Part shown: positions 17,887 to 34,633 of the stretch, piece by piece
Layout: each line of letters starts with the position of its first letter
Position numbering within the stretch: position 1 is the stretch's first letter
NCBI RefSeq assembly: GCF_016405985.1
Contig: NZ_JAEFCF010000005.1
Location: 62,001-126,000 of the forward strand
Direction: 5' to 3'
DNA from: Paracoccus sp. IB05
GTDB lineage: Bacteria; Pseudomonadota; Alphaproteobacteria; Rhodobacterales; Rhodobacteraceae
Length of the DNA stretch: 64,000 bases
Made by a program: the position numbers and the translations under genes
Notes under the pieces: generated by a model
Seen by the model: only the letters and a program-made list of their open reading frames with translations
Database searches by the model: none
What the model was told of the DNA's origin: nothing

Positions 17887-18759
17887 TCACCACGGCGCTT
17901 TCAGCAGGTCGAGCGGGATCTTCAGATAGCGTCTGCCATCCGATTCCGGTGCGGGCAGGCGCCCGGCATTGATATTCACCTGCAGCGCATGCAGGATCAG
18001 CTTCGGCATCGGCAATGTCGCATCGCGGGCCTCGCGGGCTGCGACATAGGCGGCTTCTGTCAGGTATTTCGACATATGGCTGTTGGTGCCGCGTTGCGCG
18101 GCCACGGTTGATTCCCAGGCAGCCGCCCGTCCGCCCTGACAATAGTCATGACCGGTAAAGACCCGTGTCGCATCGGGCAGCGCGAGGATCGCCTGGATCG
18201 ACGCCCAGAGCGAAGGGGCCGAGCCGCCGGGGAAATCTGCCCGCGCCGTGCCGCTGTCGGGCATGAACAGCGTATCATGCACAAAAGCCGCATCGCCGAT
18301 CACATAAGTGATCGAGGCCAGGGTATGGCCGGGCGAAAACATCACCCGGGCCGCAATCTCTCCGACAAAGAACGTATCGCCATCTTCGTAAAGCCGGTCC
18401 CATTGCGACCCGTCCGCCGGAAAGTCTGCAAGGTTGTAAAAGCCCTTCCACAGCTTTTGTACCTCGATCACTTTCGCCCCGATTGCTGTCGGCGCACCGG
18501 TTTTGCGCTTCAGGTAATCGGCGGCCGAGAAATGGTCTGCATGGGGGTGGGTGTCGAGGATCTGCGTCAGCCGGTAGCCCTCGGTGGCGATGAAGGCGAG
18601 AATGCGGTCCGCCTCAATCGTCGCGGTGGCGCCGGATTTCTCGTCATAATCCAGCACCGGGTCGATGATGACGCAATCCTTCGTCACCGGATCGGCGACC
18701 ACATATTGGACAGATCCGGTGCGGCTTTCGTAGAAAGCGGTAACGGTCGGGAGGCTCAT
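17887..18759 (-). CDS. MBL-fold metallo-hydrolase, persulfide-dioxygenase/Blh-like
   Basis: A 290-residue metallo-beta-lactamase-fold protein with T-H-P-H-A-D-H-F-S-A-A-D-Y-L, S-P-G-H-T-L, D-T-L-F-M-P-D-S-G-T-A-R and T-G-H-D-Y. This pattern is typical of the ETHE1/Blh branch, whose known members are iron persulfide dioxygenases or act in sulfide detoxification with rhodaneses. The ATG at 18759 matches the family N terminus; an upstream in-frame ATG at 18813 adds 18 unlike residues. It is the last gene of the long leftward operon that also contains a rhodanese-type sulfurtransferase, which supports a sulfur role. Confidence 0.8.
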   Translation of the reverse strand: MSLPTVTAFYESRTGSVQYVVADPVTKDCVIIDPVLDYDEKSGATATIEADRILAFIATEGYRLTQILDTHPHADHFSAADYLKRKTGAPTAIGAKVIEVQKLWKGFYNLADFPADGSQWDRLYEDGDTFFVGEIAARVMFSPGHTLASITYVIGDAAFVHDTLFMPDSGTARADFPGGSAPSLWASIQAILALPDATRVFTGHDYCQGGRAAAWESTVAAQRGTNSHMSKYLTEAAYVAAREARDATLPMPKLILHALQVNINAGRLPAPESDGRRYLKIPLDLLKAPW

Positions 18760-18877
18760 CGGGCAGACTTTCGCAGGATCACATGCCGGGGTTCGGCAGC
18801 TGTCGTCAAACAAGAGAAGTCACGGATGTCATGCCCCGGATGCAGATTGCTCAGCGCATCCGGGGCTGAGGCCGCGC

Positions 18878-19327
18878 TCAGGCGAGGTGCTTTTTCTCGA
18901 TCAGCTCGATGATCAGCCCCTCTTCCGGGGTCCGGAAATAGACGATGCGCGAGCCGGTATTCGGGCCCTGGTCGATGACGATGATCTCGCCGACCTGATC
19001 CATCGGCCAGGCGCGAACCTTTGCCAGCATCTCATCCATATCGCTGACATTCATCGCCATATGCAAAGAGCCGAGATCGACCGGACGCATCCGGTAATCC
19101 TTCCGGTCATCAGGTTTGGAATAGCACAGCAATTCGATATTGGTTGCCCCGTTCCTCATATAGACGATCTCGACCTCGGTACCCGGCACGCCGAGCACGG
19201 CCGAGATGACCGCCGGATCGCGCGGCGCGCGTGAAAAGGTCTCGAAGCCGAACAGATCGCGGAACATCGCCTCGGCGCGGTCCAGGTCCTTAACGGTGAT
19301 GCCGGTATGGTTGACGGTGATGGGCAT
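18878..19327 (-). CDS. VOC/glyoxalase-family protein
   Basis: A 149-residue single-module vicinal-oxygen-chelate protein. Metal-ligand positions look intact: His7 in N-H-T-G-I, Glu near 65 in T-N-I-E-L-L, His near 89 in S-L-H-M-A-M and Glu near 142 in L-I-I-E-L-I. Two such modules would form an active dimer. Family members are epimerases, isomerases, lyases and dioxygenases, so the reaction is open; epimerising or isomerising a sugar-acid intermediate would fit the operon. GAGGAGG precedes the ATG by six bases, and the gene follows the SDR by 18 bases. Confidence 0.8.
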   Translation of the reverse strand: MPITVNHTGITVKDLDRAEAMFRDLFGFETFSRAPRDPAVISAVLGVPGTEVEIVYMRNGATNIELLCYSKPDDRKDYRMRPVDLGSLHMAMNVSDMDEMLAKVRAWPMDQVGEIIVIDQGPNTGSRIVYFRTPEEGLIIELIEKKHLA

Positions 19328-19345
19328 GGTATCCTCCTCGGGAAT

Positions 19346-20092
19346 TCAGCGACCGCCGCTGACGGCGACGGATGTTCCTGTGACATAGCTTGCGGCATCC
19401 GACAGCAGCCAGGCGATGACCGAGGCGGTCTCTTCGGCCGATCCGACCCGGCCAAGGGGCACATTGGATTTGAGCCGCTCGGCCCGGCTGGCATCGCCGC
19501 AGCTTTCGTGGATGTCGGTGGCAATCAATCCGGGGCGCACCGCATTGACGCGGATCTGATCGGGCCCAAGCTCTTTCGACAGGCCGATGGTCAGCGTCTC
19601 GACCGCGCCTTTCGAGGCGCCATAGTCCAGAAACTCGCCCGCGCCGCCCAAAGTCGCCGCCATTGACGAGACATTGACGATCGAGCCCCCGGCCCCGCCA
19701 TGGCGGGGGGCCATCAGCCGCACCGCTTCACGGCAGCACAGGAAGGCACCGGTCGTATTGATGGCCAAAGTCTCCTGCCAGCGGGCAAGCGAGATCTCTT
19801 CGAACCGGCCGATCCGGGGCAGGATGCCCGCATTATTCACCAGCCCTTCAAGGCTGCCGTGACGGTCCCGGATGCCGGCAAAGATCGCCAGCACATCCTC
19901 TTCGCGGGAGATGTCACCGGCGATGGCCCAGGCCTCACCGCCCGCTTCGCGGATGGCGCTGACAACGGCGTCAGCGCCGGCTTTGGCCGAGCGGTAATTC
20001 ACCACCACCTGCCAGCCATCGCGGGCGGCGGCGAGGGCGGTGGCGGCACCGATGCCGCGCGAGCCGCCGGTGATCAGAACGGTTTTCACCAT
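19346..20092 (-). CDS. SDR-family NAD(P)-dependent oxidoreductase
   Basis: A 248-residue classical short-chain dehydrogenase. Cofactor motif G-G-S-R-G-I-G at the N terminus, N-N-A-G in the middle, active-site S-S-M and Y-G-A-S-K, and C-terminal S-G-G-R. GAGGAG precedes the ATG. It directly follows the IlvD-type dehydratase and shares the leftward operon with a 4-hydroxy-2-oxoacid aldolase. Likely roles are oxidation of the sugar to its lactone or of a hydroxy-intermediate; sequence alone does not decide. Confidence 0.85.
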   Translation of the reverse strand: MVKTVLITGGSRGIGAATALAAARDGWQVVVNYRSAKAGADAVVSAIREAGGEAWAIAGDISREEDVLAIFAGIRDRHGSLEGLVNNAGILPRIGRFEEISLARWQETLAINTTGAFLCCREAVRLMAPRHGGAGGSIVNVSSMAATLGGAGEFLDYGASKGAVETLTIGLSKELGPDQIRVNAVRPGLIATDIHESCGDASRAERLKSNVPLGRVGSAEETASVIAWLLSDAASYVTGTSVAVSGGR

Positions 20093-20102
20093 GGCGGTCT
20101 CC

Positions 20103-21830
20103 TCAATGGCTTATGCGTTGCACGCTCAGCTCGCGCGACTCGCTGGCGAAATCGAAATCACAGCCCAGATCAGCCTGTTCGACATGATCCCGGTACAGCC
20201 GCTGATAGCCGCTGTTCACCGGCGGCAACACCGGGGTGAAACCCTCGGCGCGGCGCGCAAGTTCTTCGTCCGACACGTCAAGATGCAGGCGGCGGGCCTC
20301 GATATCGACCTCGATCCAGTCTCCGTCCCGCACAAAGGCCAGGGGGCCGCCATCAGCCGCCTCGGGGGCGACATGGAGGATGACAGTGCCATAGGCGGTG
20401 CCGGACATGCGCGCATCCGAGATGCGGATCATGTCGCGTATCCCTTTGTCGAGCACCTTCTTCGGCAGGCCCATATTGCCGACCTCGGCCATGCCCGGAT
20501 AGCCCTTGGGGCCGCAGTTCTGCAGCACCAGAATCGAGTTTTCATCGACCTCAAGATCCGGATCATTGATGCGCTTGTAGTAGTTCTCGATTGACGAGAA
20601 GACCACGGCGCGGCCCCGGTGACGGAACAGTTCCGGCGAAGCTGCCGAGGGTTTCAGCACCGCGCCACGCGGCGCCAGATTGCCACGCAGAACGGCGATG
20701 CCGCCCTCGTCGCGCAGCGGTTTGTCCCAGTCCCGGATGACTTCCGCATCATAGACCTCGGCCTCGCGCACCTGTTCCCAGACCGGGATACCGGCGACGG
20801 TCAGCGCCTCCTTATGCAGGAGCTCATGCTCGCCAAGCGCGCGCATCACCGCAGGAAGCCCGCCCGCGTAATAGAAATCCTCCATCAGGAAGCGCCCCGA
20901 CGGCATCAGATCGACAATGGTCGGCACGCCGCGCCCCAGCCGGTCCCAGTCATCAAGGCCCAGATCGACCCCGACACGCCGCGCAATCGCGATGAGGTGA
21001 AGGACCGCATTGGTCGATCCGCCAATCGCCGCATTGACGCGGATCGCGTTTTCAAACGCCTCGCGGGTCAGGATCTTCGAGATCGTGATATCCTGTTTGA
21101 CAAGATTAACGATCTGCCGCCCTGCCAGTTGCGACAGCACCCGACGCCTGGAATCCACCGCCGGAATGGCGGCGTTCTGGAACAGGCCGAGACCAAGCGC
21201 CTCGACCATCGACGCCATGGTCGAGGCCGTGCCCATCGTCATGCAAGACCCCGCCGAGCGCGAATGCCCGGCCTCGGCGGCAAGGAAATCTGCCTCGGTC
21301 ATCTTGCCGGCCTTGAGCTCTTCGACCCAGCGGAAGACGGCCGTGCCGGACCCGACCCGTTCGCCCTTGACGACGCCGTTCAGCATCGGCCCGCCCGAGA
21401 CCACGACGGCCGGAATATCGCAGCTCGCAGCCCCCATCACGAGAGAAGGGGTGGTTTTGTCGCAGCCCGCCATCAGGACGACACCATCGACCGGATAGGC
21501 GCGGATACATTCCTCGACATCCATCGCCGCAAGGTTGCGATGCAGCATCGCGGTCGGGCGGGTCTGGCTTTCCGAGGCGGAAAGCACCGGGAATTCCACC
21601 GGGAAGCCGCCTGCCTCATAGACGCCGAACTTCACCTTTTCGGCAAGGTCGCGCAGATGGGCATTGCAGGGCGTCATCTCGGACCAGGTGTTGCAGATGC
21701 CGATCACCGGGCGGCCGTCGAATTCATCCTCGGGCATGCCCTGGTTCTTCATCCAGGACCGGTGCATGAAGGCGCTTTTGGAGTTGCCGCCATACCATTG
21801 CCGGGACCGGAGCTCTTTTTTGTCGCTCAT
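20103..21830 (-). CDS. IlvD/EDD-family sugar-acid dehydratase (L-arabinonate dehydratase type)
   Basis: A 575-residue dehydratase that would remove water across C2-C3 of an aldonic acid, giving a 2-keto-3-deoxy acid. Probable [2Fe-2S] ligands are Cys55, Cys123 and Cys196, with Lys125 in the G-C-D-K-T-T-P motif. These have the same spacing as C59/C127/C200 of the characterised Rhizobium L-arabinonate dehydratase. The start overlaps the aldolase stop by four bases, so dehydratase and aldolase are translationally coupled. The coupling argues that the dehydration product is the aldolase substrate. Confidence 0.88.
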
Positions 21831-22837
21831 TTTTCGCCCCCCGCCATATCCAGCGCCACATCGACGATCATATCTTCCTGACCACCAACCATCTCGCGCC
21901 GGCCAAGCTCGACCAGCAGCGCCCTTGTATCGACGCCATATTGCGCCGCGGCGCGTTCGGCATGCCGCAGGAAGCTGGAATAGACCCCGGAATAGCCGAT
22001 CGAGAGCGTCTCGCGGTCGACCTGGACGGGGCGGTCCATCAGCGGGCGCACCAGATCATCGGCGGCGTCCTGGATGCGGAACAGATCAGCCCCATGGCTG
22101 AAGCCCTCACGTTTCAGGACCGCGACCAGCGGCTCCAGCGGCGTATTCCCCGCACCTGCCCCCATACCGGCCAGCGAGGCGTCAACGCGGGTGGCACCTT
22201 CATGCAGGGCGACGATGCTGTTGGCGACCGCCACCGACAGGTTCTGATGCGCATGAATGCCGATCTCGGTTTCCGGGCGCAGCGCATCGCGGTAAGCGCG
22301 GATGCGTTCGCTCACCCCCGCCATGGTCAGCGCACCGGCGGAATCGGTGACATAGACGCAATGGGCGCCATAGCTTTCCATCAGCTTCGCCTGTTCCGCC
22401 AGCAGCGCGGCCGGCGCGCGATGCGCCATCATCAGAAAGCCCGAGACATCCATGCCAAGCCCGCGCGCCGCCTCGATATGCTGGCGCGAGACATCGGCTT
22501 CGGTGCAATGGGTGGCGACGCGAACCGAGCGCACGCCAAGCGCATAGGCCTCGCGCAGATGTTCGATCGTGCCGATGCCCGGAAGCAGCAAAGTGGTCAG
22601 CCGCGCCGATTTGCAGGCCTCCGCTGCCGCGGCGATCCAGTCATGATCCTTATGCGAGCCGAAACCGTAATTCAGCGAAGATCCGGCCAGCCCATCGCCA
22701 TGCGCGACCTCGATGGCGTCAATCCCGGCCGCATCCAGCGCTGCCACAATCGCTGCGACCCGGTCAGGCGTCAGCTGATGGCGGACCGCATGCATCCCGT
22801 CACGCAGGGTGACGTCCTGGAGGTAAACTTTCTTCAT
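21827..22837 (-). CDS. mhpE: 4-hydroxy-2-oxovalerate aldolase
   Basis: A 336-residue aldolase of the MhpE/BphI/DmpG family, which splits 4-hydroxy-2-oxopentanoate into pyruvate and acetaldehyde. Catalytic and metal residues are visible: [11 protein letters not shown] at 12-22 and the metal-binding I-H-A-H-Q-N near 200. The C-terminal DmpG communication domain that docks the dehydrogenase is present. Both gene ends overlap their neighbours by four bases: the acylating dehydrogenase before it and the dehydratase after it. In aromatic meta-cleavage operons a hydratase supplies this substrate; here no such gene exists and a sugar-acid dehydratase takes its place. Confidence 0.92.
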
Positions 22838-23769
22838 GCCTTTTTCTCCGCAGCCAGAACCAGGCGTTCGGCGGTGCGCAGCGCTGCCGAAGTCATGATG
22901 TCGAGATTGCCCGCGTAAGACGGAAGGTAATGCGCGGCGCCCTCGACTTCGAGGAAGACGGTGACCTTCATCCCCGTGAAACGGATATCGTGATCTGCGA
23001 GGATAAGCGGCGCATTGGCCGGGATCTTCTCGACCTGGACCTCATGCTTGAGCCGGTAGCCCGGGACATAGCGGCGCACCTCTTCGACCATTTCGCGCAC
23101 CGAAGCGCGGATCGCCTCCGGATCGGCCTCGTCACACAGGCACAGAACCGTATCGCGCATCGTCAGCGGCGGCTCTGCCGGGTTCAGAATGATGATCGCC
23201 TTGCCGTGTTTCGCGCCGCCGATCTTCTCAATCGCGCGCGAGGTGGTCTCGGTGAATTCGTCGATATTGGCCCGGGTGCCGGGGCCTGCGGATTTCGAAG
23301 CGATGGCGGCAACAATCTCGGCATAGGCCACGGGCGCGATGCGGGAAATTGCGGCCACAACCGGAATCGTCGCCTGGCCGCCGCAGGTGACCATATTCAC
23401 ATTCGGCGCGTCCAGATTGGCCTCGAGATTGACCACAGGGACCACGAAGGGGCCGATGGCCGCAGGGGTCAGATCGACCATGCGGATGCCGCGTGCGGCC
23501 AGCATTTCGGAATGTTTCGCATGGGCACCGGCACTGGTCGCATCAAAGGCGATGACGACCTCATCCGCCTCGGGCATCGCAAGGAAGCCTTCGACGCCTG
23601 TGGCACTGACCGGCACGCCAAGGCGCTTTGCCCGCGCGAGCCCATCGGAGTCAGGATCAATGCCGATCATTGCGCCCATTTCCAGTACTTTGGAAAGGCG
23701 CATTACCTTGATCATCAGATCGGTGCCGATATTGCCGGAGCCGATGATCGCAACCTTGCGGCGGGTCAT
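22834..23769 (-). CDS. mhpF: Acetaldehyde dehydrogenase (acylating)
   Basis: A 311-residue NAD- and CoA-dependent dehydrogenase of the MhpF/BphJ/DmpF family. Residues 6-14 (A-I-I-G-S-G-N-I-G) bind NAD, and the nucleophile is the Cys in N-M-V-T-C-G-G-Q-A. It accepts acetaldehyde channelled from the aldolase and yields acetyl-CoA. AAGGA lies seven bases before the ATG, and the stop overlaps the aldolase start as ATGA, as in known channelling pairs. Its presence is strong evidence that the aldolase releases acetaldehyde or a close homologue rather than glycolaldehyde or lactaldehyde. Confidence 0.92.
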
Positions 23770-23821
23770 TCTTCAGTCCTTCGGAAGAGGCGCCCTGCCG
23801 CATCGCGGAGGGCGGAGATAA

Positions 23822-24625: not shown

Positions 24626-24687
24626 CGCATGGCCTTCCGTCGGTAAGCGTGTAGGGAGTTTATCGGCCCTGGTCTGGCCCGTCAATA

Positions 24688-24703
24688 AAACTGTATGCAG
24701 ATT
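24688..24703. promoter_or_regulatory. Putative GntR operator (upstream of gntR gene)
   Basis: AAACTGTATGCAGATT. Its reverse complement, AATCTGCATACAGTTT, matches the site at 26892-26907 in 15 of 16 positions. The shape is an inverted repeat AAnCTG-N4-CAGttt, the size and symmetry expected for FCD-type GntR proteins. Confidence 0.65.
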
Positions 24704-24906
24704 TTTCGAATCTGAGCGGCGGAACCTTTCTGTGGCAGGATTGGGAGCTGCAGGTTTGCGTCGTATATCCTGATTAATATACTGATAATACTGTGTAAAT
24801 CATGATCATTAGGCCTGTAGGGCCATTTTCCGGCAGTAAGGATCTCTTTTTGCTGCCGAAAAACTGTATTACAAAAATGGTCACGTCCTCTTTGGGCGAC
24901 GCGCCC

Positions 24907-25761
24907 TTAAAGCGGTTTTATCCGCTTTGGTGTGTCGTCCTGCTGGCCCCATTCATGCCAGGAGCCATCATAGAGCCGCCATTGCGGATGGCCGATTGCC
25001 TCGAGCATGAAGCCGAGAATTGAGGCGGTGACGCCAGAGCCACAGGTGGTGATCACCTCGCCGGAAAGATCAACGCCCTTCCCGGCAAAGATCTCGGTGG
25101 CACGTTCGGCGCTGACAAAACGATATGAGGGGGCGGGTTCATAGAACAACGCCCAGGGCGTGTTGATCGCGCCCGGCATATAGCCGGAAGCGACACCCGG
25201 ATAGCCCGATCCCTCATGCCCGTCGAAACGCGCGGCGGTGCGGGCATCGATGATTGATGCCCCCTGGTCGACCAGATTGCGCATCTCGGCCAGGGCGACC
25301 ACGCGGCCCCCGGCCAGGCGGGCGGGGAAATCCCGCAAGGCCGGCGGCACAAAATCGCCGGTCGCGACGGGACGGCCCTCGGCCAGCCAGCGCCGCCAGC
25401 CGCCATTCAGGATTTTCACCCGGTCATGACCAAAGGTGCGGAGCATCCACCAGAGCCGCGCCGAGACATAGCCGGCATCATAGAGAATCACCTCGGTCTC
25501 GGCGCCGATGCCAAGGGCACCGATCTCGCGCGCGAAGACCGATGCTTCGGGCAGCATATTCACATAGGGCGAGTCCGGGTCGGAAATCGCGTTCAGATCC
25601 ACGAAGCGCGCGCCGGGGATATGACCCGCCCGGAAATCCTCATGCCCGTCACGACCGGCATCCGGCACATACCAGGAACAGTCCAGCACCACCCGGTCGG
25701 CACCCGGTTCGGCCGCCAGCAGCGCGGCGAGGTCATCGGTTTCGATCAGCCATTTGCTCAT
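24907..25761 (-). CDS. Tandem-rhodanese sulfurtransferase (SseA / 3-mercaptopyruvate or thiosulfate sulfurtransferase)
   Basis: A 284-residue two-domain rhodanese. The inactive N-terminal domain carries G-H-I-P-G-A and the C-terminal domain has the active loop T-C-G-S-G-V-T-A, the CG(S/T)GVT signature of 3-mercaptopyruvate sulfurtransferases. It moves a sulfane sulfur to a thiol or cyanide acceptor. AAGGA lies seven bases upstream of ATG, and it follows the SDR by 11 bases in the leftward sugar operon. With the persulfide-dioxygenase-like gene at the end of that operon, it suggests that sulfur is released from, or accompanies, the substrate. Confidence 0.88.
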   Translation of the reverse strand: MSKWLIETDDLAALLAAEPGADRVVLDCSWYVPDAGRDGHEDFRAGHIPGARFVDLNAISDPDSPYVNMLPEASVFAREIGALGIGAETEVILYDAGYVSARLWWMLRTFGHDRVKILNGGWRRWLAEGRPVATGDFVPPALRDFPARLAGGRVVALAEMRNLVDQGASIIDARTAARFDGHEGSGYPGVASGYMPGAINTPWALFYEPAPSYRFVSAERATEIFAGKGVDLSGEVITTCGSGVTASILGFMLEAIGHPQWRLYDGSWHEWGQQDDTPKRIKPL

Positions 25762-25772
25762 GGGATGTTCCT

Positions 25773-26588
25773 TCAGCGCGCGATGCCCGGGCGGCGCGGT
25801 GCCTCGACCCAGGAAGCGCCGGTCAGCACGCCGCCGTCAATCACCACATTCTGTCCGGTCACATAGCGGGTCGCCGGCGCAACAAGATAGAGCGTGGTTG
25901 TCACGAGGTCTTCAGGCACGGCCAGCCGCCCCTGCGGGATGAAATTCGCAAACCATTCGGCGCGGTAATTGTCATCCCAGAGCGGCTTTGTGAATTCGGT
26001 CTGCACAAAGCCCGGCTCGATCGCATTCACCTGGATATTGTCATCGGCCCATTCATGCGCCTGGGAGCGCGTCAGCGAGGTCACGGCCGCCTTGGTCGCC
26101 GCATAGACCGAGATCGTATCAAAGGAGATATTGGCGGAGAGCGAGCTGAAATGCAGGATCTTGCCGCCGCCCTGCGCCTTCATCACCGGATGCACGGCCT
26201 GAGACAGGAAATAGACCGAACGCAGATTGACCGAAGTGATCAGGTCGAAATCTTCGGGGGTCACTTCGGTGATCGGCTTGCGCCGGTTGGCGCCCTGCAG
26301 GTTGATCAGGATATCGATGCGACCGGTGAGTTCCTTGGCCCGCGCAACCAGATCCGCGGCAGCTTCTGCCGTGCTCAGATCCGCCTGGAGGCCGGCAAAT
26401 GTCAGGCCTTTCGCGGCAAAGTCCTGCGAGAGTTTGTCGAGCCTGTCCTGCGCGAGGTCATGCACGATCACGGTCGCGCCTGCGCGTGCCAGGCCCTCGG
26501 ATACAGCCGACCCGATGGCCCCGGCGCCACCGGCGACCAGGGCGGTCTTTCCGGAGAGCGAAAAGAGATCGGCAAGATAGCTGGACAT
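25773..26588 (-). CDS. SDR-family oxidoreductase (first gene of leftward operon)
   Basis: A 271-residue short-chain dehydrogenase with G-G-A-G-A-I-G for the cofactor, an N-L-Q-G variant of the usual N-N-A-G, and catalytic S-S-L plus Y-A-A-T-K. AAGGA sits eight bases before the ATG. It is the promoter-proximal gene of the leftward operon, diverging from the sugar importer. A sugar 1-dehydrogenase or hydroxy-acid dehydrogenase role fits, but the substrate pocket cannot be read. Confidence 0.87.
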   Translation of the reverse strand: MSSYLADLFSLSGKTALVAGGAGAIGSAVSEGLARAGATVIVHDLAQDRLDKLSQDFAAKGLTFAGLQADLSTAEAAADLVARAKELTGRIDILINLQGANRRKPITEVTPEDFDLITSVNLRSVYFLSQAVHPVMKAQGGGKILHFSSLSANISFDTISVYAATKAAVTSLTRSQAHEWADDNIQVNAIEPGFVQTEFTKPLWDDNYRAEWFANFIPQGRLAVPEDLVTTTLYLVAPATRYVTGQNVVIDGGVLTGASWVEAPRRPGIAR

Positions 26589-26927
26589 GTCACTTTTCCT
26601 TATGGTCTGCCGGGCTGCGGCTTTGCTGCCGGTCCGGGTGATCTTCGGTTACTTCTCAATTCCAGACTACAGTAAATGCAAATAGTTTTTCCGTGCTGCA
26701 TCGCGGAAACTGAGGTGATTTCTTGCTGCAAAGCAGCGTAATGCCGGAGTGTCTTCATAGAAGTATGACAGATCACACTGAAAATTAAGGGGAAAAAATA
26801 TACTCCGGGGTGGTGCAGGCGCAGCAACGATTTTCCTTTGCAAAGCGAAAAGAAACCATATTGTACGCTTTACTAAGGCGCCCGCAGAGGCAAACTGCAT
26901 ACAGTTTAATCAACAGGAATCACCATC
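26589..26927. promoter_or_regulatory. Divergent promoter region of the sugar divergon
   Basis: A 339-base, noticeably AT-rich gap between the leftward SDR operon and the rightward ABC operon. It must carry both promoters; the rightward one probably lies close to 26850-26900, overlapping the palindrome at 26892. No gene is supported inside it. Confidence 0.7.
26892..26907. promoter_or_regulatory. Putative GntR operator (upstream of sugar ABC operon)
   Basis: AAACTGCATACAGTTT, an inverted repeat with perfect 6-base arms AAACTG/CAGTTT around CATA, ending 20 bases before the ATG of the binding-protein gene. It matches the inverted site upstream of gntR in 15 of 16 bases. Its position close to the start codon fits repression. 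Confidence 0.7.
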
Positions 26928-27902
26928 ATGCTGAAACGCACGTTCCTTCTCGCGGCTTCCGGCCTGGCTCTGGCCGGTGCGCTCGGGCTGCCCGCAGCGG
27001 CTGAACCCAAGGGCAAGGATGCCGAAGTCACCATCCTCGTCTCGCCGCTGACCTTCGCCTTCCCGCATTTCGTATTCCTCACCGACGAGCTGAAAGATGA
27101 GGCGAATAAGCTGGGCGGCGTGACCATCGTGGTCGCGGATGGCCAGCTCTCTGCGCCCAAGCAGATCGCCGATATCGAGGCGGCCATTGTTCAGGGGGTC
27201 GATGGTATCATCCTCGCGCCGGTCGAGGCCGATGCGCTGGCGCCGGTGGTGCAGCAGGCGATTGACGCCGGCATCGCCGTCGTGACGGTCGACCGTCCGG
27301 TCAATGGCGTGCCCGATGTGCTTGCCAATGTCGCGGCGGACAATTTCAAGGGCGCAGAAGCCCAGGGCGAGGCGGTTGTCAAAGCCTTTCCCGATGGCGC
27401 GACCATCGTGAACCTGCAGGGCATCCCCGGCGACAAAACGGCCAATGACCGCAATGGCGGCGCGCATAAAGTGCTCGACGCGGCTGGTGAGAAATACGTT
27501 TTCGTCGCCGAGCAGGCGGGCAATTTCTCGCGCGATAAGGGCCTGGAGGTCACCGAGAACATCCTGACCGGCCTTGCAGAAGTTCCGCAGGTCATCATCG
27601 CGGCCAATGACGATATGGCACTGGGGGCCGCTCAGGCTGTCGATGCGCGCGGGCTTAAGGGCAAGGTCGCGATCTATGGCTATGACGGGTCGGAAGACGC
27701 GCTGAAGGCCGTGAAATCGGGTGATCTGGCGGCAACCGTCGATCAGTTCCCGGGGCTTCAGGGGCGCACTGCGGTCTCGACGCTTGTCGCGTTCATCCGT
27801 GAAGGCACCCGCCCCGAGAGCGCTGAGGTTCTGGTCGCGCCCGTCGCGATCACCGCAGACAATCTCGACCAGGCCGAGCGTGTCGGGCAGATCGGCGAAT
27901 GA
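26928..27902 (+). CDS. Sugar ABC transporter periplasmic binding protein (RbsB-like)
   Basis: A 324-residue exported protein with a signal peptide (K-R at 3-4, hydrophobic core 5-22, cleavage near A-A-A-E). The mature part is a Peripla_BP_4 pentose-type binding protein with I-E-A-A-I-V-Q-G-V-D-G-I in the first lobe, the V-D-R-P hinge-pocket segment and A-A-N-D-D-M-A-L-G. These residues in RbsB relatives contact ribose-like sugars, so a pentose or deoxypentose ligand is plausible. The gene heads the rightward operon and has AGGAA eight bases before the ATG. Confidence 0.9.
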   Translation: MLKRTFLLAASGLALAGALGLPAAAEPKGKDAEVTILVSPLTFAFPHFVFLTDELKDEANKLGGVTIVVADGQLSAPKQIADIEAAIVQGVDGIILAPVEADALAPVVQQAIDAGIAVVTVDRPVNGVPDVLANVAADNFKGAEAQGEAVVKAFPDGATIVNLQGIPGDKTANDRNGGAHKVLDAAGEKYVFVAEQAGNFSRDKGLEVTENILTGLAEVPQVIIAANDDMALGAAQAVDARGLKGKVAIYGYDGSEDALKAVKSGDLAATVDQFPGLQGRTAVSTLVAFIREGTRPESAEVLVAPVAITADNLDQAERVGQIGE

Positions 27903-29536
27903 GCCATCCGTCCTCCCCTCCCGGGAAGGATCAGCAAAAGCCGGGGCGCGCAAGCAGCCCCGGCGCATTGCCCTCTGCCCCCGGTTCTGATGCTGCGCCC
28001 GGATCTGCGCCCCGTTCTGCCCCCGGCGTGACAGCCCCGCTGCTTGAAGCCCGGGGCTTCGTGAAGCGATTCTTCGGTGTTACCGTTCTGGACGGCGTCT
28101 CGCTGAGCCTGGCGCCGGGAGAGGTGCGTGCGCTTCTGGGCGAGAACGGGGCGGGCAAATCCACGATCATCAACCTGCTGTCGGGCGTGCATCAGCCCGA
28201 TGGCGGTATGCTTTTGCTCGATGGCGCGCCGGTGCGCTTTACCCGCCCGCTGGAGGCAGATCATGCCGGGATCAGCGTGATCCGCCAGGAACTGTCGCTT
28301 TTCCCCGACCTTTCGGTGGCCGAGGCGATCTTTGCCGGCCATTTGCCGCTGAACCGGCTGGGCCTTGTTGACTGGAGGCAGATGCGCGAGGCGGCCCGAA
28401 AGGCGCTCGCCCGGCTCGGCCTCGAAATCGATGTGCGCGCCCCGGTGGCGAGCCTGTCCATCGCCCATCAGCAGATGGTCGAGATCGCGCGGGCGCTGAC
28501 CCGCAAATCGCGCGTGGTCATCATGGATGAACCCACCGCCTCGCTGTCCCCCAATGAGGTGGCGCATCTGGGCGAGATCATCGCGCAGCTCTCTGCCGGG
28601 GGGGTGGCGGTGCTTTATGTCAGTCACCGTCTCGACGAGATCCGCGCCTTCTGCCGCACCTATACCGTTCTGCGCGATGGCAAGGCGGTTTCTGCGGGGC
28701 TTGTCTCCGAGACGGATATCCCCTCGCTGATCCGCGACATGGCCGGACGCGAGGTCGAGATCGGCGCCGCCGGTGCCGCCCGTCAGCCCGGTGCACCGGT
28801 TCTCGAACTGCAACACCTCGCCTCGGTTCCCGGTGGCCGTGGCGGTCAGCGGGTCCGCGATGTCAGCCTTGTGGTCCGTGCCGGAGAGATCCTCGGCCTT
28901 GCAGGCATCGTCGGTGCCGGCCGGACCGAGACGGCGCGGATGATCTTTGGCCTTGATCCCGTCGGATCGGGAGAGATCCTGCTGAACGGCAGACCTTTCC
29001 GGGCCGGGTCTCCTGCGGCCGCGATGGCGGCGGGGATCGGCTATGTGCCCGAGGATCGCAAGGGGCTTTCGATCCTGCCCGACCGTTCGGTCGCCGAGAA
29101 TTTTGCGCTGACCGGCGCGGTGCCGGCGGGTCCGCTGGGCTGGAATGACAGGCCGGGTGAGGCAAAGGCGCTTGCCGGCTTCGTGCAGCGGCTCGGCATC
29201 CGTGCCGCCAGTCTGCGCGCCCCGATCACCACGCTTTCGGGCGGCAACCAGCAAAAGGTCATCCTTGCGCGCTGGATCGCGCTGAAGCCAAAGCTCCTGA
29301 TCATCGACGAGCCGACGCGTGGCATTGATGTCGGGGCCAAGGAAGATGTCCATTCGCTGATCCGCGAAATTGCGGCCGGGGGCGTGGCGGTCCTGCTGAT
29401 CTCTTCGGATCTGCCCGAGGTGCTGGCGCTGTCTGACCGGATCGTCACCCTGCGTGAGGGAGAGACCACTTCTGAACAACCCGCCGCCGATGCGACATCC
29501 GAGGGGCTTATGGCGCGGATGACCCGCCATGGCTGA
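27899..29536 (+). CDS. Sugar ABC transporter tandem ATP-binding protein (RbsA-like)
   Basis: A 545-residue double ATPase, start coupled by ATGA. The first ~40 residues are a proline/serine/glycine-rich extension not usual in RbsA. The N-terminal ATPase has G-E-N-G-A-G-K-S-T and L-S-I-A-H-Q-Q-M; the C-terminal half has a degenerate Walker A (G-I-V-G-A-G-R-T-E) and the signature T-L-S-G-G-N-Q-Q-K, as is normal for this family. It energises sugar uptake with the neighbouring binding protein and permease. Confidence 0.9.
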   Translation: MSHPSSPPGKDQQKPGRASSPGALPSAPGSDAAPGSAPRSAPGVTAPLLEARGFVKRFFGVTVLDGVSLSLAPGEVRALLGENGAGKSTIINLLSGVHQPDGGMLLLDGAPVRFTRPLEADHAGISVIRQELSLFPDLSVAEAIFAGHLPLNRLGLVDWRQMREAARKALARLGLEIDVRAPVASLSIAHQQMVEIARALTRKSRVVIMDEPTASLSPNEVAHLGEIIAQLSAGGVAVLYVSHRLDEIRAFCRTYTVLRDGKAVSAGLVSETDIPSLIRDMAGREVEIGAAGAARQPGAPVLELQHLASVPGGRGGQRVRDVSLVVRAGEILGLAGIVGAGRTETARMIFGLDPVGSGEILLNGRPFRAGSPAAAMAAGIGYVPEDRKGLSILPDRSVAENFALTGAVPAGPLGWNDRPGEAKALAGFVQRLGIRAASLRAPITTLSGGNQQKVILARWIALKPKLLIIDEPTRGIDVGAKEDVHSLIREIAAGGVAVLLISSDLPEVLALSDRIVTLREGETTSEQPAADATSEGLMARMTRHG

Positions 29537-29651
29537 CCTGTGGATTTTTCGCCGCTGCCCACCCGGCTTTCAACTGGGTGCGGCGCTGATGCGACGGCAG
29601 CCGAACCCGATACGCGACTGACTTCCGCGACTGACTTCAAGGAACCCGACC

Positions 29652-30659
29652 ATGACCAAAGCCCAGGCCGACGAGCTGTCCCGCGCCCGGATGTATGCCC
29701 TTCTGGGCAAGCTTGCACCGCTGATCTTCCTGCTGGCCCTCGTGATCATATTCGCGAGCCTGCAGCCCCGTTTCCTGCTGCCGCTGAACCTGTTCAACAT
29801 TCTGCGCCAGGTCTCGATTTACGGGATCATCGCAATCGGGATGACCTTCGTCATCCTGATCCGCGGCATTGACCTTTCCGTGGGGGCGCTGGTGGCGATG
29901 TCCGGTCTTTGCGCCGCGGTCGTGGCCAAGGGCGGGATCGAGGGGCGGTTCATGCTGTCCGCCGATGGCAGTGGCTATCACTGGGCTCTGGCGGCTTTGG
30001 CTGCAATTCTTGCCGGAACGGTCGCAGGGCTGTTGCAGGGGATGGCGGTGGCCTGGCTTTCGGTGCCGGCTTTCGTGGTGACGCTGGGCGGCATGACCGT
30101 CTTTCGCGGCATTGCGCTGACCATCGGCAATGGCGGGCCGATCTCGGGATTTGACGAGGCATTTGGCTGGTGGGGGCGGGGCATGATCGGCCCGGTTCCG
30201 GTGCCGGTGCTGATTTTTGCCGCTGTCGCGCTGATCGCCTGGGTGGTGCTGACCCAGACCCGCTTTGGCCGCGCGGTCTATGCGGTCGGATCAAACCCCG
30301 ATGCGGCGCGGCTTTCCGGGATCAATGTCAGCGGCGTCACGCTTTCGGTCTACGCCCTGATCGGCTTTTGCTCAGGGCTTGGCGGTTTCGTGCTGGCCTC
30401 GCGCCTCAACTCCGCCGAAGCTGTCGCCGGCACCGGCTATGAGCTGACCGCGATCGCGGCGGTGGTGATCGGCGGCACCAGCCTTTACGGTGGCACCGGC
30501 GGCGTGGCAGGCACGGTGATTGGCGCATTGCTGACCGGGGTGCTTCTGAACGGGCTCGTGATCCTGAATGTGTCGCCCTACACGCAGCAGATCCTGGTCG
30601 GGCTGATCATCGTCGCGGCCGTGGCCTTTGACCATTTCATCAAGAGGCAAAGCAGATGA
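29652..30659 (+). CDS. Sugar ABC transporter permease (RbsC-like)
   Basis: A 335-residue BPD_transp_2-family inner-membrane protein with eight to ten hydrophobic segments, the R-G-I-D-L-S-V-G-A motif near residue 72 and the Y-A-V-G-S-N-P-x-A-A-R-L-S-G-I loop that contacts the ATPase. It starts 115 bases after the ATPase gene, a small gap with no gene, and has AAGGA before the ATG. Its stop overlaps the lactonase-like gene as ATGA, tying that enzyme to transport. Confidence 0.92.
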   Translation: MTKAQADELSRARMYALLGKLAPLIFLLALVIIFASLQPRFLLPLNLFNILRQVSIYGIIAIGMTFVILIRGIDLSVGALVAMSGLCAAVVAKGGIEGRFMLSADGSGYHWALAALAAILAGTVAGLLQGMAVAWLSVPAFVVTLGGMTVFRGIALTIGNGGPISGFDEAFGWWGRGMIGPVPVPVLIFAAVALIAWVVLTQTRFGRAVYAVGSNPDAARLSGINVSGVTLSVYALIGFCSGLGGFVLASRLNSAEAVAGTGYELTAIAAVVIGGTSLYGGTGGVAGTVIGALLTGVLLNGLVILNVSPYTQQILVGLIIVAAVAFDHFIKRQSR

Positions 30660-32560
30660 GCCGCGCAATCACGCTGACCGGAACCGAAATCACCGAAGCC
30701 CCTGTGCGCCTGTTGCGCGCGGGCCCGCTGGAGGCCGCGTTCGATGCGGGCGCGCTGCGCTGGATCCGCTGGAACGGGGTCGAGGTATTGCGCGCGGTCA
30801 TGTTCCTGGTGCGCACACCGGGCTGGGGCACGCCCGCGCCGTTGATCACCGCGCTTGAGATCGGGGAAACGGCGGAACGGTTCACCATCAGCTATGACGC
30901 GCATTACGGCACCGCCGGCACCGGCGTTAAGGTCGGGGTCCGGCTGACCGGTGAGGCTTCGGGGCGGTTGCGCGCCGAGGCCCTGATCCGCGCCGAGGCG
31001 CCTTTTGAGACCAATCGTACCGGCTTTGTGATCCTGCATCCGCTCGACGGTTTTGCAGGCACCGAAGTGACGGTGGGGCACGCCTCGGCCCCTGGCCGGG
31101 ATCTGGTGATCCCGGCGCAGATCTCGCCCGGACAGCCGGTGATGGATATGCAGGTGATCACCCATCGCCCGGTGCCCGGCCTTGCGGTCGAGACCCGGTT
31201 CGAGGGGGATATTTTCGAGATGGAGGATCACCGGAACTGGTCAGATGCCTCTTTCAAGACCTATAGCCGCCCGATCGGCCTGCCCTATCCCTATCTGCTC
31301 GACCCTGCCGCGCCTGTTACCCAGGCGGTGACGGTCACCATGACCGATACGGGTGCGACGGCTGCGGCTGTATCCGCGGTCGCTGTGCCGGAGGCCGCGG
31401 GGCAGCGCCTGCCCGATTATGCGCTGCCGCTTGACCATCCGGACGATGCAGCGGCGGCGCTTGAGCATTCCGGGGCGCTGCGCGCCTTGGCGCCCGCCTG
31501 GCTTTTGCTGCGCCATGATACGACACGCGGCGCGGCGGCGGCGGATCTGGCGCCGCTTGCGGCCCTGCTGGATCTGACCGGCGCGCAGCTTGAGGTGCAG
31601 GCGATCCTTGCAAGCGCTGCGGCAGGTGAGGCCGATGCCGAGCTTGCCGCACTTGCCGCAAGGCTCAGTTCAGCGGGCATCACCCCCGCCCGGATCGGGG
31701 CTTTCGCAAGGATCGACGAGCAGAGCTTCCAGCCGGGCGAGGCGCGCCCGCCACATCCCGCCGAACCGGATATCGCGGCGGCGCTGGCGAAACACTTCCC
31801 GCAAAGCGAGAAGATCGGCGGCACGCCGGCCTTTTTCACCGAGTTCAACCGCAAACGTCCCCAACCGGCACTTTGGGCGGGTCTGAGCTTTGCCACGACA
31901 CCGGTGGTCCATGCCGCCGATGACGCTTCGGTGATGGAGACGCTGCAATCTTTGCCGCATATCCTCGCCTCGGCGCGGGCGCTTTCGGACGGGACGCCGC
32001 TTCTGATCGGGCCGACCGGCATCGGCGCGAGGATCAACCCTTACGGCCCCGGCCCGTCGGACAATGCCCCCGGCTCACGTGAGGGTATGGCCGCCCGCGA
32101 CCCGCGCCAGCGCGGGCTTTATGCGGCGGCCTGGACGGTGGGCTATCTGGCGCGGATCGCAGCTTTCGCGCCGGTGCGTTTTGCCTTTGGCGCTGCCACC
32201 GGGCCTTTCGGTCTGATCTCGACCCGCCAGGATTATGCGCGGCCCTACTGGGACGAGCAGCCGGACGGCGCGCTTTATCCGCTTTACCATGTCGCGAAAT
32301 GGCTCGCGGCGGCGGCAGGGGGCCGGCTTCTCTCGGCCACGACCGGGGGTGGTCTGGCCTCGGTGATCTGGGAGAAAGACGGTCGGCGCGAGGCGCTGAT
32401 CGCCAATCTGACACCCGCGCCGCTGGCGCTGCCAGACCCTGGGCTGCGCAAGCCGCACGCCGCGTTGCTGGACGCCGGTAATCCCGCAGACCCCGTTATC
32501 GTTCCGCTGCCCGCGCAGCTGGACGCCTATGCGGTGCTGCATTTGACGCAACAGGAATGA
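30656..32560 (+). CDS. D-apionate lactonase-like protein (ApnL family)
   Basis: A 634-residue cytoplasmic protein matching the ApnL family in my recall: an N-terminal beta-rich part with N-R-T-G-F-V-I-L-H-P, then I-S-P-G-Q-P and the distinctive F-E-M-E-D-H-R-N-W-S-D-A-S-F-K-T-Y near 183-199, a TIM-barrel-like middle, and a C-terminal beta domain. ApnL hydrolyses D-apionolactone after oxidation of the branched sugar D-apiose. Here it sits between sugar permease and a Gfo/Idh/MocA dehydrogenase with four-base overlaps on both sides, so opening a sugar lactone is the natural role. No known later step of apionate breakdown is near, so the true lactone may be another sugar's. Confidence 0.75.
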   Translation: MSRAITLTGTEITEAPVRLLRAGPLEAAFDAGALRWIRWNGVEVLRAVMFLVRTPGWGTPAPLITALEIGETAERFTISYDAHYGTAGTGVKVGVRLTGEASGRLRAEALIRAEAPFETNRTGFVILHPLDGFAGTEVTVGHASAPGRDLVIPAQISPGQPVMDMQVITHRPVPGLAVETRFEGDIFEMEDHRNWSDASFKTYSRPIGLPYPYLLDPAAPVTQAVTVTMTDTGATAAAVSAVAVPEAAGQRLPDYALPLDHPDDAAAALEHSGALRALAPAWLLLRHDTTRGAAAADLAPLAALLDLTGAQLEVQAILASAAAGEADAELAALAARLSSAGITPARIGAFARIDEQSFQPGEARPPHPAEPDIAAALAKHFPQSEKIGGTPAFFTEFNRKRPQPALWAGLSFATTPVVHAADDASVMETLQSLPHILASARALSDGTPLLIGPTGIGARINPYGPGPSDNAPGSREGMAARDPRQRGLYAAAWTVGYLARIAAFAPVRFAFGAATGPFGLISTRQDYARPYWDEQPDGALYPLYHVAKWLAAAAGGRLLSATTGGGLASVIWEKDGRREALIANLTPAPLALPDPGLRKPHAALLDAGNPADPVIVPLPAQLDAYAVLHLTQQE

Positions 32561-33606
32561 ATGCTGTGAGCCAGAATCTCAAAGGTCTTTTCATCGGCGC
32601 GGGCTTTTTCTCGCGCAACCATCTTAACGCCTGGGCCGAGGTCGAGGGCGCCGGGATCGCGGCGATCTGTGACCGCGATCCGGTACGGGCCGAGGCCGCG
32701 GCGAAAGAATTCGGTATTGCAGAATGGGTGACAGATGCCGCTGTCCTGCAATCGGGGCGCTTCGATTTCGTGGATATCTGCACCACGATGGAGACACATG
32801 AAGCCCTGGTTGGCCTCGCCGTCCAGGCGGGTGTGCCGGTCATCGTCCAAAAGCCTTTCGCCCCCGATATCGAGACCTGCCTGCGCATCGAGGCCAATGC
32901 CCGCAAAGCCGGTGTGCCGGTCATGCTGCATGAGAATTTCCGCTTTCAGAAGATCTTCCGCCGCTTGCGCGAGATCCTGTCCTCGGGAGAGATTGGCGAC
33001 ATCACCTTCGGCCGCCTCAACTGGCGCAATGATATCGACGTTTATACCAACCAGCCCTATCTGGTTGAGACCAGACGTTTCATGATCATGGATGTCGGTA
33101 TCCATATGCTTGATCTGGCGCGCTTTTTGCTTGGGGATGCCTCTGAGGTCAGCTGCTTCAACCAGTCGGTGAAAGAGGGGATCGCGGGCGAGGATGCTGC
33201 AACCATGCTGCTGCGCCATGACAATAAGGCGGTCTCGGTGGTCGATGTGAGCTATGCCAGCCATAAAAGCCCGAACCCGTTCCCGCAAACCCTGGGCGAG
33301 ATCGAGGGTCGTCTTGGCACGGTCGAGATCCTCGAAGGCCAGGTGCTGCGTGTCCATACCGCTGCCGGGCGGCGCGATGAGGTGATTGCAGAGGATGGCC
33401 GGGCCTGGACCGCGGCGCCCTGGACGCAGATCCAGGATTCGGTGCCCCGCACCCAGCAGCATTTCATTGACTGCCTGCGGGACGGGCGTGATTTCGAGAC
33501 CTCGGCGCAGGACAGTCTGAAGACCTATGCCCTTGCCGAAGCCGCCTATCGTTCTGCGGCCTCGGGCCGGACTGTCGGCATTGCCGAATTGCTGAAGGAA
33601 GCCTGA
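32557..33606 (+). CDS. Gfo/Idh/MocA-family sugar dehydrogenase (D-apiose dehydrogenase-like)
   Basis: A 349-residue oxidoreductase. The N-terminal Rossmann motif G-A-G-F-F-S-R-N-H, the lysine-containing Q-K-P (usually E-K-P), H-E-N-F-R-F and D-V-G-I-H-M-L-D-L place it in Gfo/Idh/MocA, and H-E-N-F-R-F also occurs in ApsD-type D-apiose dehydrogenases. It would oxidise C1 of a sugar to the lactone with NAD(P). The start overlaps the lactonase-like stop as ATGA, so dehydrogenase and lactonase are likely consecutive steps. The aldo-keto reductase follows immediately. Confidence 0.83.
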   Translation: MNAVSQNLKGLFIGAGFFSRNHLNAWAEVEGAGIAAICDRDPVRAEAAAKEFGIAEWVTDAAVLQSGRFDFVDICTTMETHEALVGLAVQAGVPVIVQKPFAPDIETCLRIEANARKAGVPVMLHENFRFQKIFRRLREILSSGEIGDITFGRLNWRNDIDVYTNQPYLVETRRFMIMDVGIHMLDLARFLLGDASEVSCFNQSVKEGIAGEDAATMLLRHDNKAVSVVDVSYASHKSPNPFPQTLGEIEGRLGTVEILEGQVLRVHTAAGRRDEVIAEDGRAWTAAPWTQIQDSVPRTQQHFIDCLRDGRDFETSAQDSLKTYALAEAAYRSAASGRTVGIAELLKEA

Positions 33607-33607
33607 A

Positions 33608-34633
33608 ATGACCCCTGAAATGCGTCGCGAAGTCGGGCGTACCAGTTTCGAAATCCCGGTTCTCGGCCTTGGCACCTGCCCGCTGGGCGGCGTCTATGCG
33701 GCCATCGGCGAGGCTGAGGCCCGCGCCACCTATGAGGCGGCCTGGAATGGCGGCATCCGGTTCTTCGATACCGCGCCCTGGTACGGGCTTGGCCAGGCCG
33801 AGCACCGCACCGGCCGTGCGCTTTATGACCGTCCGCGTGGCGATTATGTGCTGACGACCAAGGTCGGTCGCGTCTTGCGCGCGCCGCGCGACCGGACCGG
33901 ATTTGTGCCCCCGGCCTGGCAGGCGCCGCTGGCTTTTGAGCCGCATCATATCTTCACCTATGACGCGGTGATGCGTTCTTATGAAGACAGCCTGCAGCGC
34001 CTTGGCATCAACCAGGTCGATGCCGTCTATATCCACGACCTCGACAGCGGCTATTTCAAAACGCCCGAGGCGCTGGACGCCAAACTGCGCGAACTGGATC
34101 AGGGCGGCGGCTACCGCGCGCTGGACGAGCTGAAACGCGCGGGTGAGATCCGCGCTATCGGCGCCGGCATCAATGAGCGCGGCATGATCCGCCGTTTCCT
34201 TGCCGACACCGATCTGGACCTGTTTCTCGTCGCCTCGCGCTATACGCTGCTCGAACATGAGATCTATCGGGATGAGATCGTCGAGGCCGGCCGCCGCGGC
34301 GCCTCGGTGGTGGTGGGGGGGGCGTTCAGTTCCGGGATCCTGGCCACCGGCCTCGTCGAGGGGGCGAAATATGAATATGGCGCGGTGCCGCCGGCCATCG
34401 CCGGCAAGGTGCAACGGCTGAGCGCGATTGCCGCCGCACACGGGATCTCACTGGCGGCAGCGGCATTGCAGTTCCCGCTGGCGGCGCCCGAGGTCTGCTC
34501 GGTGGTCTTCGGGGCGGTGACCCCGGCCGAAGTGGCGCAGAATATTGCGCATTTCGGAACGGATATCCCGCAGGGCTTCTGGTCGGATCTGCGCGGCGAG
34601 GGGCTCGTCGCTCAGGATGTGCCGCTGCCCTGA
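33608..34633 (+). CDS. Aldo/keto reductase, D-threo-aldose (L-fucose) 1-dehydrogenase-like
   Basis: A 341-residue (beta/alpha)8 aldo-keto reductase with the tetrad visible: Asp and Tyr in F-D-T-A-P-W-Y-G, Lys in T-T-K-V-G and His in I-H-D-L. The R-T-G-R-A-L and V-G-R-V-L-R segments resemble bacterial D-threo-aldose / L-fucose dehydrogenases, which oxidise L-fucose, D-arabinose and L-xylose at C1. It starts one base after the previous stop with AAGGA upstream. Its 3' end overlaps the converging second GntR gene by 22 bases. It is a second candidate sugar 1-dehydrogenase in this operon. Confidence 0.83.
   Translation: MTPEMRREVGRTSFEIPVLGLGTCPLGGVYAAIGEAEARATYEAAWNGGIRFFDTAPWYGLGQAEHRTGRALYDRPRGDYVLTTKVGRVLRAPRDRTGFVPPAWQAPLAFEPHHIFTYDAVMRSYEDSLQRLGINQVDAVYIHDLDSGYFKTPEALDAKLRELDQGGGYRALDELKRAGEIRAIGAGINERGMIRRFLADTDLDLFLVASRYTLLEHEIYRDEIVEAGRRGASVVVGGAFSSGILATGLVEGAKYEYGAVPPAIAGKVQRLSAIAAAHGISLAAAALQFPLAAPEVCSVVFGAVTPAEVAQNIAHFGTDIPQGFWSDLRGEGLVAQDVPLP

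Follow-up and report, generated by a model that had tools for sequence, protein, structure and literature searches.

The 64,000-nucleotide stretch of Paracoccus sp. IB05 DNA analysed here (contig NZ_JAEFCF010000005.1; hereafter the window) contains a minus-strand operon in which an IlvD/EDD sugar-acid dehydratase is joined to an MhpE/DmpG-type 4-hydroxy-2-oxovalerate aldolase and an MhpF/DmpF-type acylating acetaldehyde dehydrogenase. Judging from sequence, the IlvD product quite probably feeds MhpE and MhpF, an association seen in three genomes, the IlvD proteins of which group in a single clade. The fuller reading, to which we give a probability of about 45%, is that the operon would perform the last steps of a kinase-free 5-deoxypentonate route. 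Gene content, gene order, families, recurrence and phylogeny were seen directly; the enzyme activities, the substrate and any link between the operon and a divergent importer block we infer. The system is probably a variant of non-phosphorylative oxidative sugar catabolism, and no description of a sugar route coupling IlvD to MhpE/MhpF was recognised among the papers listed in searches of the open-licence literature.

The IlvD–MhpE–MhpF trio

The trio occupies positions 20103-23769 of the minus strand, with MhpF (P0005, 311 aa) at 22834-23769, MhpE (P0004, 336 aa) at 21827-22837 and IlvD (P0003, 575 aa) at 20103-21830, and the open reading frame (ORF) coordinates, together with curated family matches, bear out the initial annotation in placing a four-base overlap at both junctions. 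MhpE scores 554.8 bits with the curated model TIGR03217 (cut-off 286), contains a DmpG_comm domain in the domain scan and matches the solved structure 1nvm with 476.5 bits, while MhpF reaches 466.6 bits with TIGR03215 (cut-off 282.25) and 209.4 bits with the dimerisation domain PF09290. IlvD scores 922 bits with the dihydroxy-acid/sugar-acid subfamily NF004784 (cut-off 539) and falls just short of the L-arabinonate dehydratase equivalog NF009559 (863.9 bits, cut-off 882); its best solved relatives are 5j83 and 5j84, both structures of L-arabinonate dehydratase.

Aligned to RlArDHT (5J84; 861 bits), the window IlvD retains the residues expected of an IlvD/EDD enzyme: C55, C123 within the CDK motif at 123-125, C196, E87, S476 and H575. 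The roles of the Fe-S cysteines, the CDK motif, the Mg-ligand Glu, the catalytic Ser and the C-terminal His are described in the accessible text of PMC5770437, PMC11316719 and PMC9795676, and E87 would be the Mg ligand by our reading of the published numbering. Unlike RlArDHT, the window protein has other recognition-helix residues, a changed loop after the Mg-ligand Glu and a Trp-to-Phe exchange. In a comparison of 110 sequences including the window's own (at least 60% identity and at least 90% length), the window IlvD and that of an alphaproteobacterial metagenome-assembled genome contig (L026) have 40 positions in common, each rare (<15%) in the other 108 sequences, among them the loop right after the presumed Mg-ligand Glu. 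Both carry Phe166, where 105 of the 108 others have Trp and the remaining three Phe; the position is taken to be that of CcXyDHT Trp171, which, according to the accessible text of PMC5770437, bonds to a threonine of the substrate site. The rare residues common to the two proteins hint at a possible departure from the usual substrate, and, since the loop changes are mostly polar, they argue for an altered substrate and not specifically for a methyl group.

On the side of the aldolase, the alignment supports an acceptor pocket like that of 4S-hydroxy-2-oxopentanoate aldolases. MhpE retains the residues equated with Leu87, Leu89 and Tyr290 of BphI, which lie near the C4 methyl, limit aldehyde length and enforce 4S, as stated in the accessible text of PMC3962088; the transfer of numbering, and with it the predicted specificity, would hold if the alignment is correct at these sites. 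TIGR03217, the DmpG communication domain and the Leu/Leu/Tyr pocket together place the protein among the MhpE aldolases.

The genes of the lower meta-cleavage pathway are named DmpEFG, MhpDFE or BphHJI. The window has the same MhpE/MhpF order and overlap, and differs in carrying IlvD in the expected place of the FAH-family hydratase. No FAH-family hydratase adjoins the pair and, by eye, no ring-cleavage genes are found among the window ORFs. No 2-oxopent-4-enoate hydratase was found near the trio, nor one over the cut-off anywhere in the genome, where the sole DmpE-family match (213.4 bits, cut-off 408.8) lies on contig C68 in a homoprotocatechuate-type cluster with an HpaI-type aldolase alongside (both by eye). 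The genome has one MhpE over the cut-off, and since it holds no full-score hydratase the usual supply route to this enzyme appears unavailable.

Recurrence of the trio in other genomes

A scan of 84,980 species with IlvD returned at least 597 confirmed relatives, the best 80 of which were kept, and MhpE and MhpF (>60% of query) were found near IlvD in one of these 80, the flanks examined not reaching 10 kb at every locus. This sole repeat of the trio among the 80 is L026, whose gene order is the tail of a GntR gene, a sugar isomerase-like gene, a short-chain dehydrogenase/reductase (SDR), an SMP-30-like gene, a second SDR, a Gfo/Idh/MocA oxidoreductase (Gfo), MhpF, MhpE and IlvD. Identity to the window proteins is 71% for MhpF, 72% for MhpE, 77% for IlvD and 39% for Gfo, and the 35-residue regulator tail at the start of the contig is 69% identical to GntR1 (P0006; 23822-24685, minus strand), the regulator encoded just upstream of the window trio. 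The SMP-30-like label was given by eye, the lone NCBIfam match being ScyD/ScyE, below its cut-off.

Within the window's own family, 295 genomes were searched and 12 encode MhpE, one of them being that of the window; in 9 of the 11 others an FAH-family protein lies beside MhpF-MhpE. The exceptions are G075, with a 41% MhpE homologue seen within +/-1.5 kb, and G093. On the minus strand, the G093 operon runs GntR, an aldo/keto reductase (AKR) 48% identical to that of the window, a FucU-like gene (by eye), a fuconolactonase-like gene (202.9 bits, cut-off 400), MhpF, MhpE and a 55% homologue of SDR1, the SDR encoded downstream of IlvD in the window. Opposite it lie an altronate/galactarate-dehydratase-like gene (405.9 bits, cut-off 730.85), an SDR and an ABC importer. 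No FAH-family protein was found in the 20 kb around the G093 MhpE; just outside, about 10 kb away and likewise opposite the operon, is an FAH protein of the diketo-hydrolase type, resembling 2,4-didehydro-3-deoxy-L-rhamnonate hydrolase (404.8 bits, cut-off 500). The locus looks like an L-fucose locus to which MhpF-MhpE-SDR1 have been added. A GH4 alpha-galactosidase-like gene (295.6 bits, cut-off 486) also lies near this fucose-type cluster (L133/L147/L148).

The P0003 search found IlvD in 91 of 248 own-family genomes, the window's included, and in these 248 the closest copy after the window's is that of G093 (71%), all others reaching at most 68%. In an IlvD tree of 138 rows, whose own-family part consists of the 30 best loci and not of every copy in the 91 genomes, the window and L026 proteins pair with an SH-aLRT support of 100 and G093 joins them with 96, forming a three-row clade set against 135 others. 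Because G093 had been chosen through MhpE alone, the place of its IlvD in this clade is an independent sign of the coupling. G093 supports a sugar role for MhpE/MhpF, with a 6-deoxyhexose as one possible substrate.

At the level of the class, 39 MhpE matches were obtained besides the window's, the closest reaching 73% identity; with G668 omitted, 38 loci were examined, 20 of them within +/-1.5 kb alone. An FAH-family protein is present in 27 of the 38 and in none of the remaining 11, ten of which were seen in a wider stretch and one, L168, within +/-1.5 kb (L183-L186 were read by eye). No IlvD match was found near any of the 38 in the stretch examined. The initial annotation had offered co-occurrence of the three genes across genomes as a check, and it was found in L026 and, with IlvD at a distance, in G093, but in none of these class-level loci within the stretch examined. 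At three of the loci (L183, L184 and L186) the MhpF-MhpE pair has no FAH-family protein and no IlvD match in its neighbourhood. Among 218 plasmid records that match with close aldolases, four were inspected, and all four read as aromatic clusters.

A proposed 5-deoxypentonate route

In the route proposed here, IlvD would remove water across C2-C3 of a 5-deoxypentonate to give 4-hydroxy-2-oxopentanoate, MhpE would split the latter, yielding pyruvate plus acetaldehyde, and the acetaldehyde would be converted to acetyl-CoA by MhpF, the partner of MhpE. If the IlvD product does feed MhpE/MhpF, it should be 4-hydroxy-2-oxopentanoate and the acid consequently a 5-deoxypentonate, which is the simplest acid closing the chemistry. 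The acid would be made from the free sugar by an upstream sugar 1-dehydrogenase and a lactonase, in L026 by the adjacent Gfo and SMP-30-like proteins and in the window possibly by the divergently encoded Gfo or AKR and ApnL-like proteins.

Published specificities favour the 5-deoxy-L-arabino configuration. Sugar-acid IlvDs are strict about the C2/C3 configuration and RlArDHT prefers an L-arabinonate-type C4 (accessible text of PMC5770437, PMC11316719 and PMC9795676), while the best substrate of RlArDHT is itself a deoxy acid, D-fuconate (the latter two sources, likewise in part). A 4S product calls for L at C4, the IlvD rule for 2R,3S; the acid would then be 5-deoxy-L-arabinonate, dehydrated to (4S)-4-hydroxy-2-oxopentanoate. 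The initial annotation had argued that a 4S preference favours an L sugar, which agrees with the retained pocket residues of MhpE, the IlvD rules pointing further to the L-arabino form. Its broader proposal of a 5-deoxypentonate route is sustained as to the coupling of IlvD with MhpE/MhpF and the closing of the chemistry, but the substrate is deduced.

Several observations weigh against this route. We know of no common natural 5-deoxy-L-arabinose. The loop changes of the window and L026 IlvDs form no obvious methyl pocket, and the G093 IlvD lacks these changes; its gene lies about 8 kb from MhpF-MhpE beside another transporter, and MhpF-MhpE-SDR1 of G093 come after an L-fucose-type front end. 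The MhpE and MhpF proteins of the window, L026 and G093 form no clade in either free tree; when the three-genome grouping is forced, the MhpE tree loses 1.55 log units (approximately unbiased test, p-AU 0.449) and the MhpF tree improves by 4.76 (p-AU 0.618), and these trees neither show nor reject one inherited module. SDR1, SDR2, a 149-aa protein and a sulfurtransferase, all encoded nearby, are superfluous to the minimal route, and four dehydrogenases are present where one would suffice. The absence of the usual hydratase, which the initial annotation had noted, is confirmed locally and, over the cut-off, in the whole genome, but it is not special by itself, being common to the 11 class-level MhpE loci described above.

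Compared with known systems, the proposed route is closest to the Route I (Dahms-type) pathways for pentoses and deoxyhexoses, whose logic of 1-dehydrogenase, lactonase, dehydratase and pyruvate-releasing aldolase, as given in the accessible text of PMC6336799, it follows. It differs in that the window aldolase is of the aromatic-pathway MhpE/DmpG type with an acylating MhpF partner, so that the C2 product would become acetyl-CoA. Candidates for every step of a Route I set are present in the window, the first two in a separable block, and the candidate set of L026 is contiguous. The dihydroxyacetone phosphate (DHAP) shunt also removes 5-deoxypentoses (accessible text of PMC12632272), but it starts with MtnK-type kinases, whereas the window route would need none; the same genome encodes an MtnK over the cut-off on contig C53, where MtnA-like and RuBisCO-like genes were recognised by eye close to it, so that shunt and window route would be distinct. 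Use of 5-deoxy-D-ribose or methylthioribose by the trio was discarded, given the presence of MtnK and a D-ribo configuration unfit for the IlvD C2/C3 rule.

Were the route confirmed, the acetaldehyde-channelling end of aromatic degradation would have been re-used to finish sugar catabolism, yielding pyruvate and acetyl-CoA directly and without a kinase, which would make it a compact route for pathway engineering and a candidate fate for 5-deoxypentoses other than 5-deoxyribose. A limited panel of aldonates could identify the substrate of the gene set. A more specific version, in which the route is dedicated to a natural 5-deoxy-L-pentose, possibly C3-branched like streptose or the aceric acid found in rhamnogalacturonan II, is a long shot. 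ApsD/ApnL-like enzymes adapted to furanoses branched at C3 would then make a 3-C-carboxy-5-deoxypentonate, whose dehydration to a beta-keto acid and loss of CO2 would give 4-hydroxy-2-oxopentanoate for MhpE/MhpF. The L-xylo C2 of aceric acid, unfit for the usual IlvD stereochemistry, counts against the aceric-acid variant.

The divergent block, rival substrates and neighbouring genes

The divergent start lies at 26589-26927, between SDR2 (25773-26588, minus strand) and a plus-strand gene for a ribose-type sugar-binding protein (26928-27902; Peripla_BP_4). The latter is followed on the same strand by a sugar ABC transporter ATPase (27899-29536; two ABC_tran stretches), a permease (29652-30659; BPD_transp_2), an ApnL-like lactonase candidate (30656-32560), a Gfo protein as candidate sugar 1-dehydrogenase (32557-33606) and the L-galactose/L-fucose dehydrogenase-like AKR (33608-34633), which matches solved L-galactose dehydrogenases with at most 84.3 bits. 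GntR2 (34612-35382, minus strand) closes the region. The ApnL-like protein, a D-apionate lactonase paralogue without a Pfam match, scores 486.7 bits with NF049900, under its cut-off of 750; its relatives in Salipiger (632.8), on contig C31 of the same genome (614.4) and in R. daejeonense (501.8) fall short as well, which suggests that the cut-off is strict, the window protein being the lowest of the four. A further 42% ApnL-like protein stands with a ribose-type importer in L241 (G330), where the neighbours by eye are a four-carbon acid kinase, a class II aldolase and isomerase-like and nucleotide-sugar-epimerase-like genes; this suggests that ApnL-like proteins serve several acid-sugar pathways.

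Whether this block feeds the trio is somewhat doubtful, and the explanation that survives best beside the 5-deoxypentonate route, with a chance a little short of even, is that two unrelated units adjoin: the forward block would oxidise one sugar, and the trio would serve a different acid, either formed by SDR1 or taken up from outside, which is compatible with our reading of the trio itself. In two Rhizobiaceae, R. daejeonense and Shinella sp. PSBB067, the block from sulfurtransferase and SDR2 through binding protein, ATPase, permease, ApnL-like protein and Gfo to AKR keeps the same order, with identities of 62-83%; in the forward-block loci L178 and L179, identity is 64-65% for the sulfurtransferase, 75-76% for SDR2, 79-80% for the binding protein and 62-63% for the ApnL-like protein. 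The trio is not found in the 33-kb stretches around the R. daejeonense and Shinella blocks, a further point against a single route, nor was MhpE found at E 1e-30 in the corresponding 256-kb and 4.6-Mb records, which are single replicons searched with no positive control. A block conserved without the trio argues for a separate unit. On the other side, GntR1 and GntR2, at the two region ends, are 56% identical paralogues, and L026 also pairs a Gfo protein with the trio, directly before MhpF. The initial annotation had described a shared divergon and one route. Importer, ApnL-like protein, Gfo and AKR are indeed encoded divergently, but the term is loose, as the divergent start separates SDR2 from the binding protein and the trio sits behind its own GntR gene, and the claim of one route is weakened by the conservation of the block alone.

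Among other substrates for the trio, L-arabinose is the main ordinary rival, yet unlikely. IlvD would give 2-keto-3-deoxy-L-arabinonate, MhpE pyruvate and glycolaldehyde, and MhpF glycolyl-CoA, a variant of Route I, whose products are pyruvate and glycolaldehyde (accessible text of PMC6336799). The near miss of IlvD to the L-arabinonate dehydratase model fits, as does the L-arabinose-like set of Gfo, SMP-30-like and IlvD proteins in L026, and the C4 arrangement of L-arabinonate would, by reasoning, be the same in space as that of 5-deoxy-L-arabinonate. The MhpE pocket, however, is hydrophobic at the presumed site of the C5 group, and to our knowledge glycolyl-CoA has no catabolic use. The genome already has, moreover, a separate IlvD cluster on contig C20 with Gfo, SMP-30-like, aldose-epimerase-like and sugar-acid-kinase-like genes, galactose/arabinose-type by eye (no NCBIfam match at 1e-15 for its Gfo, SMP-30-like and kinase-like proteins), which makes ordinary galactose/arabinose use by the window genes less likely.

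Quite unlikely, too, is the cleavage of a 6-deoxyhexose, namely D-fucose or, in the case of G093, L-fucose, into pyruvate and lactaldehyde, the latter being handled by MhpF or SDR1. D-fuconate as the top RlArDHT substrate (PMC11316719 and PMC9795676, in part), the G093 operon with its FucU-like and fuconolactonase-like genes, and the 48% homologue of the window AKR in an L-fucose-type cluster (L182) all point this way. Against this, stereochemical reasoning suggests that the C4 configuration of L-2-keto-3-deoxyfuconate would not suit a 4S aldolase, lactoyl-CoA would be unusual as a product, and the altronate/galactarate-dehydratase-like protein, SDR and diketo-acid-hydrolase-like FAH protein of G093 could already finish L-fucose. 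Very improbable is D-apiose, in which Gfo and the ApnL-like protein would make apionate for IlvD to dehydrate: the best solved relative of Gfo (5uhw, 324.3 bits) is presumably the D-apiose dehydrogenase ApsD of that pathway, and Gfo and the ApnL-like protein are 47% and 37% identical to a Salipiger pair beside OiaX and a ribose-type importer, but they are a diverged second pair, a closer one (78% and 63% to the Salipiger OiaX-locus pair) lies on C31, C20 carries OiaX (67%) next to genes read by eye as kinase-like and oxidoisomerase-like, and dehydrated apionate would yield no acetaldehyde. Neither an importer nor OiaX was found in the 20 kb around the C31 pair. The terms apionate and apionolactonase both occur in PMC11747546. 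The obvious alternatives thus seem to be housed elsewhere in the genome.

Of the remaining minus-strand genes, SDR1 (19346-20092) follows IlvD after a gap of 10 bp, its nearest NCBIfam SDR models being PRK06123 and PRK06947, under their cut-offs; 18 bp past SDR1 comes the 149-aa gene (18878-19327), VOC-like by eye, with no NCBIfam match at 1e-10. Upstream, 221 bp separate the GntR1 gene from a 3-mercaptopyruvate sulfurtransferase-like gene (24907-25761; NF008557 195.8 bits, cut-off 250), which adjoins SDR2; the nearest models of the latter are glucose 1-dehydrogenase, KduD and gluconate 5-dehydrogenase, all below cut-offs. The promoter scan found 2 sites against 3.1 expected and the terminator scan 15 against 11.2 (standard deviation 3.5). 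A sulfur-sugar reading was dropped, as nothing beyond the gene names sulfurtransferase and sulfur dioxygenase backs it. A sulfur-dioxygenase-like protein (17887-18813, minus strand; Blh model 533.9 bits, cut-off 625) brackets the trio together with the sulfurtransferase-like one, and just outside the region an ORF of 799 aa (15376-17775, plus strand) looks, by eye, like a phosphoketolase.

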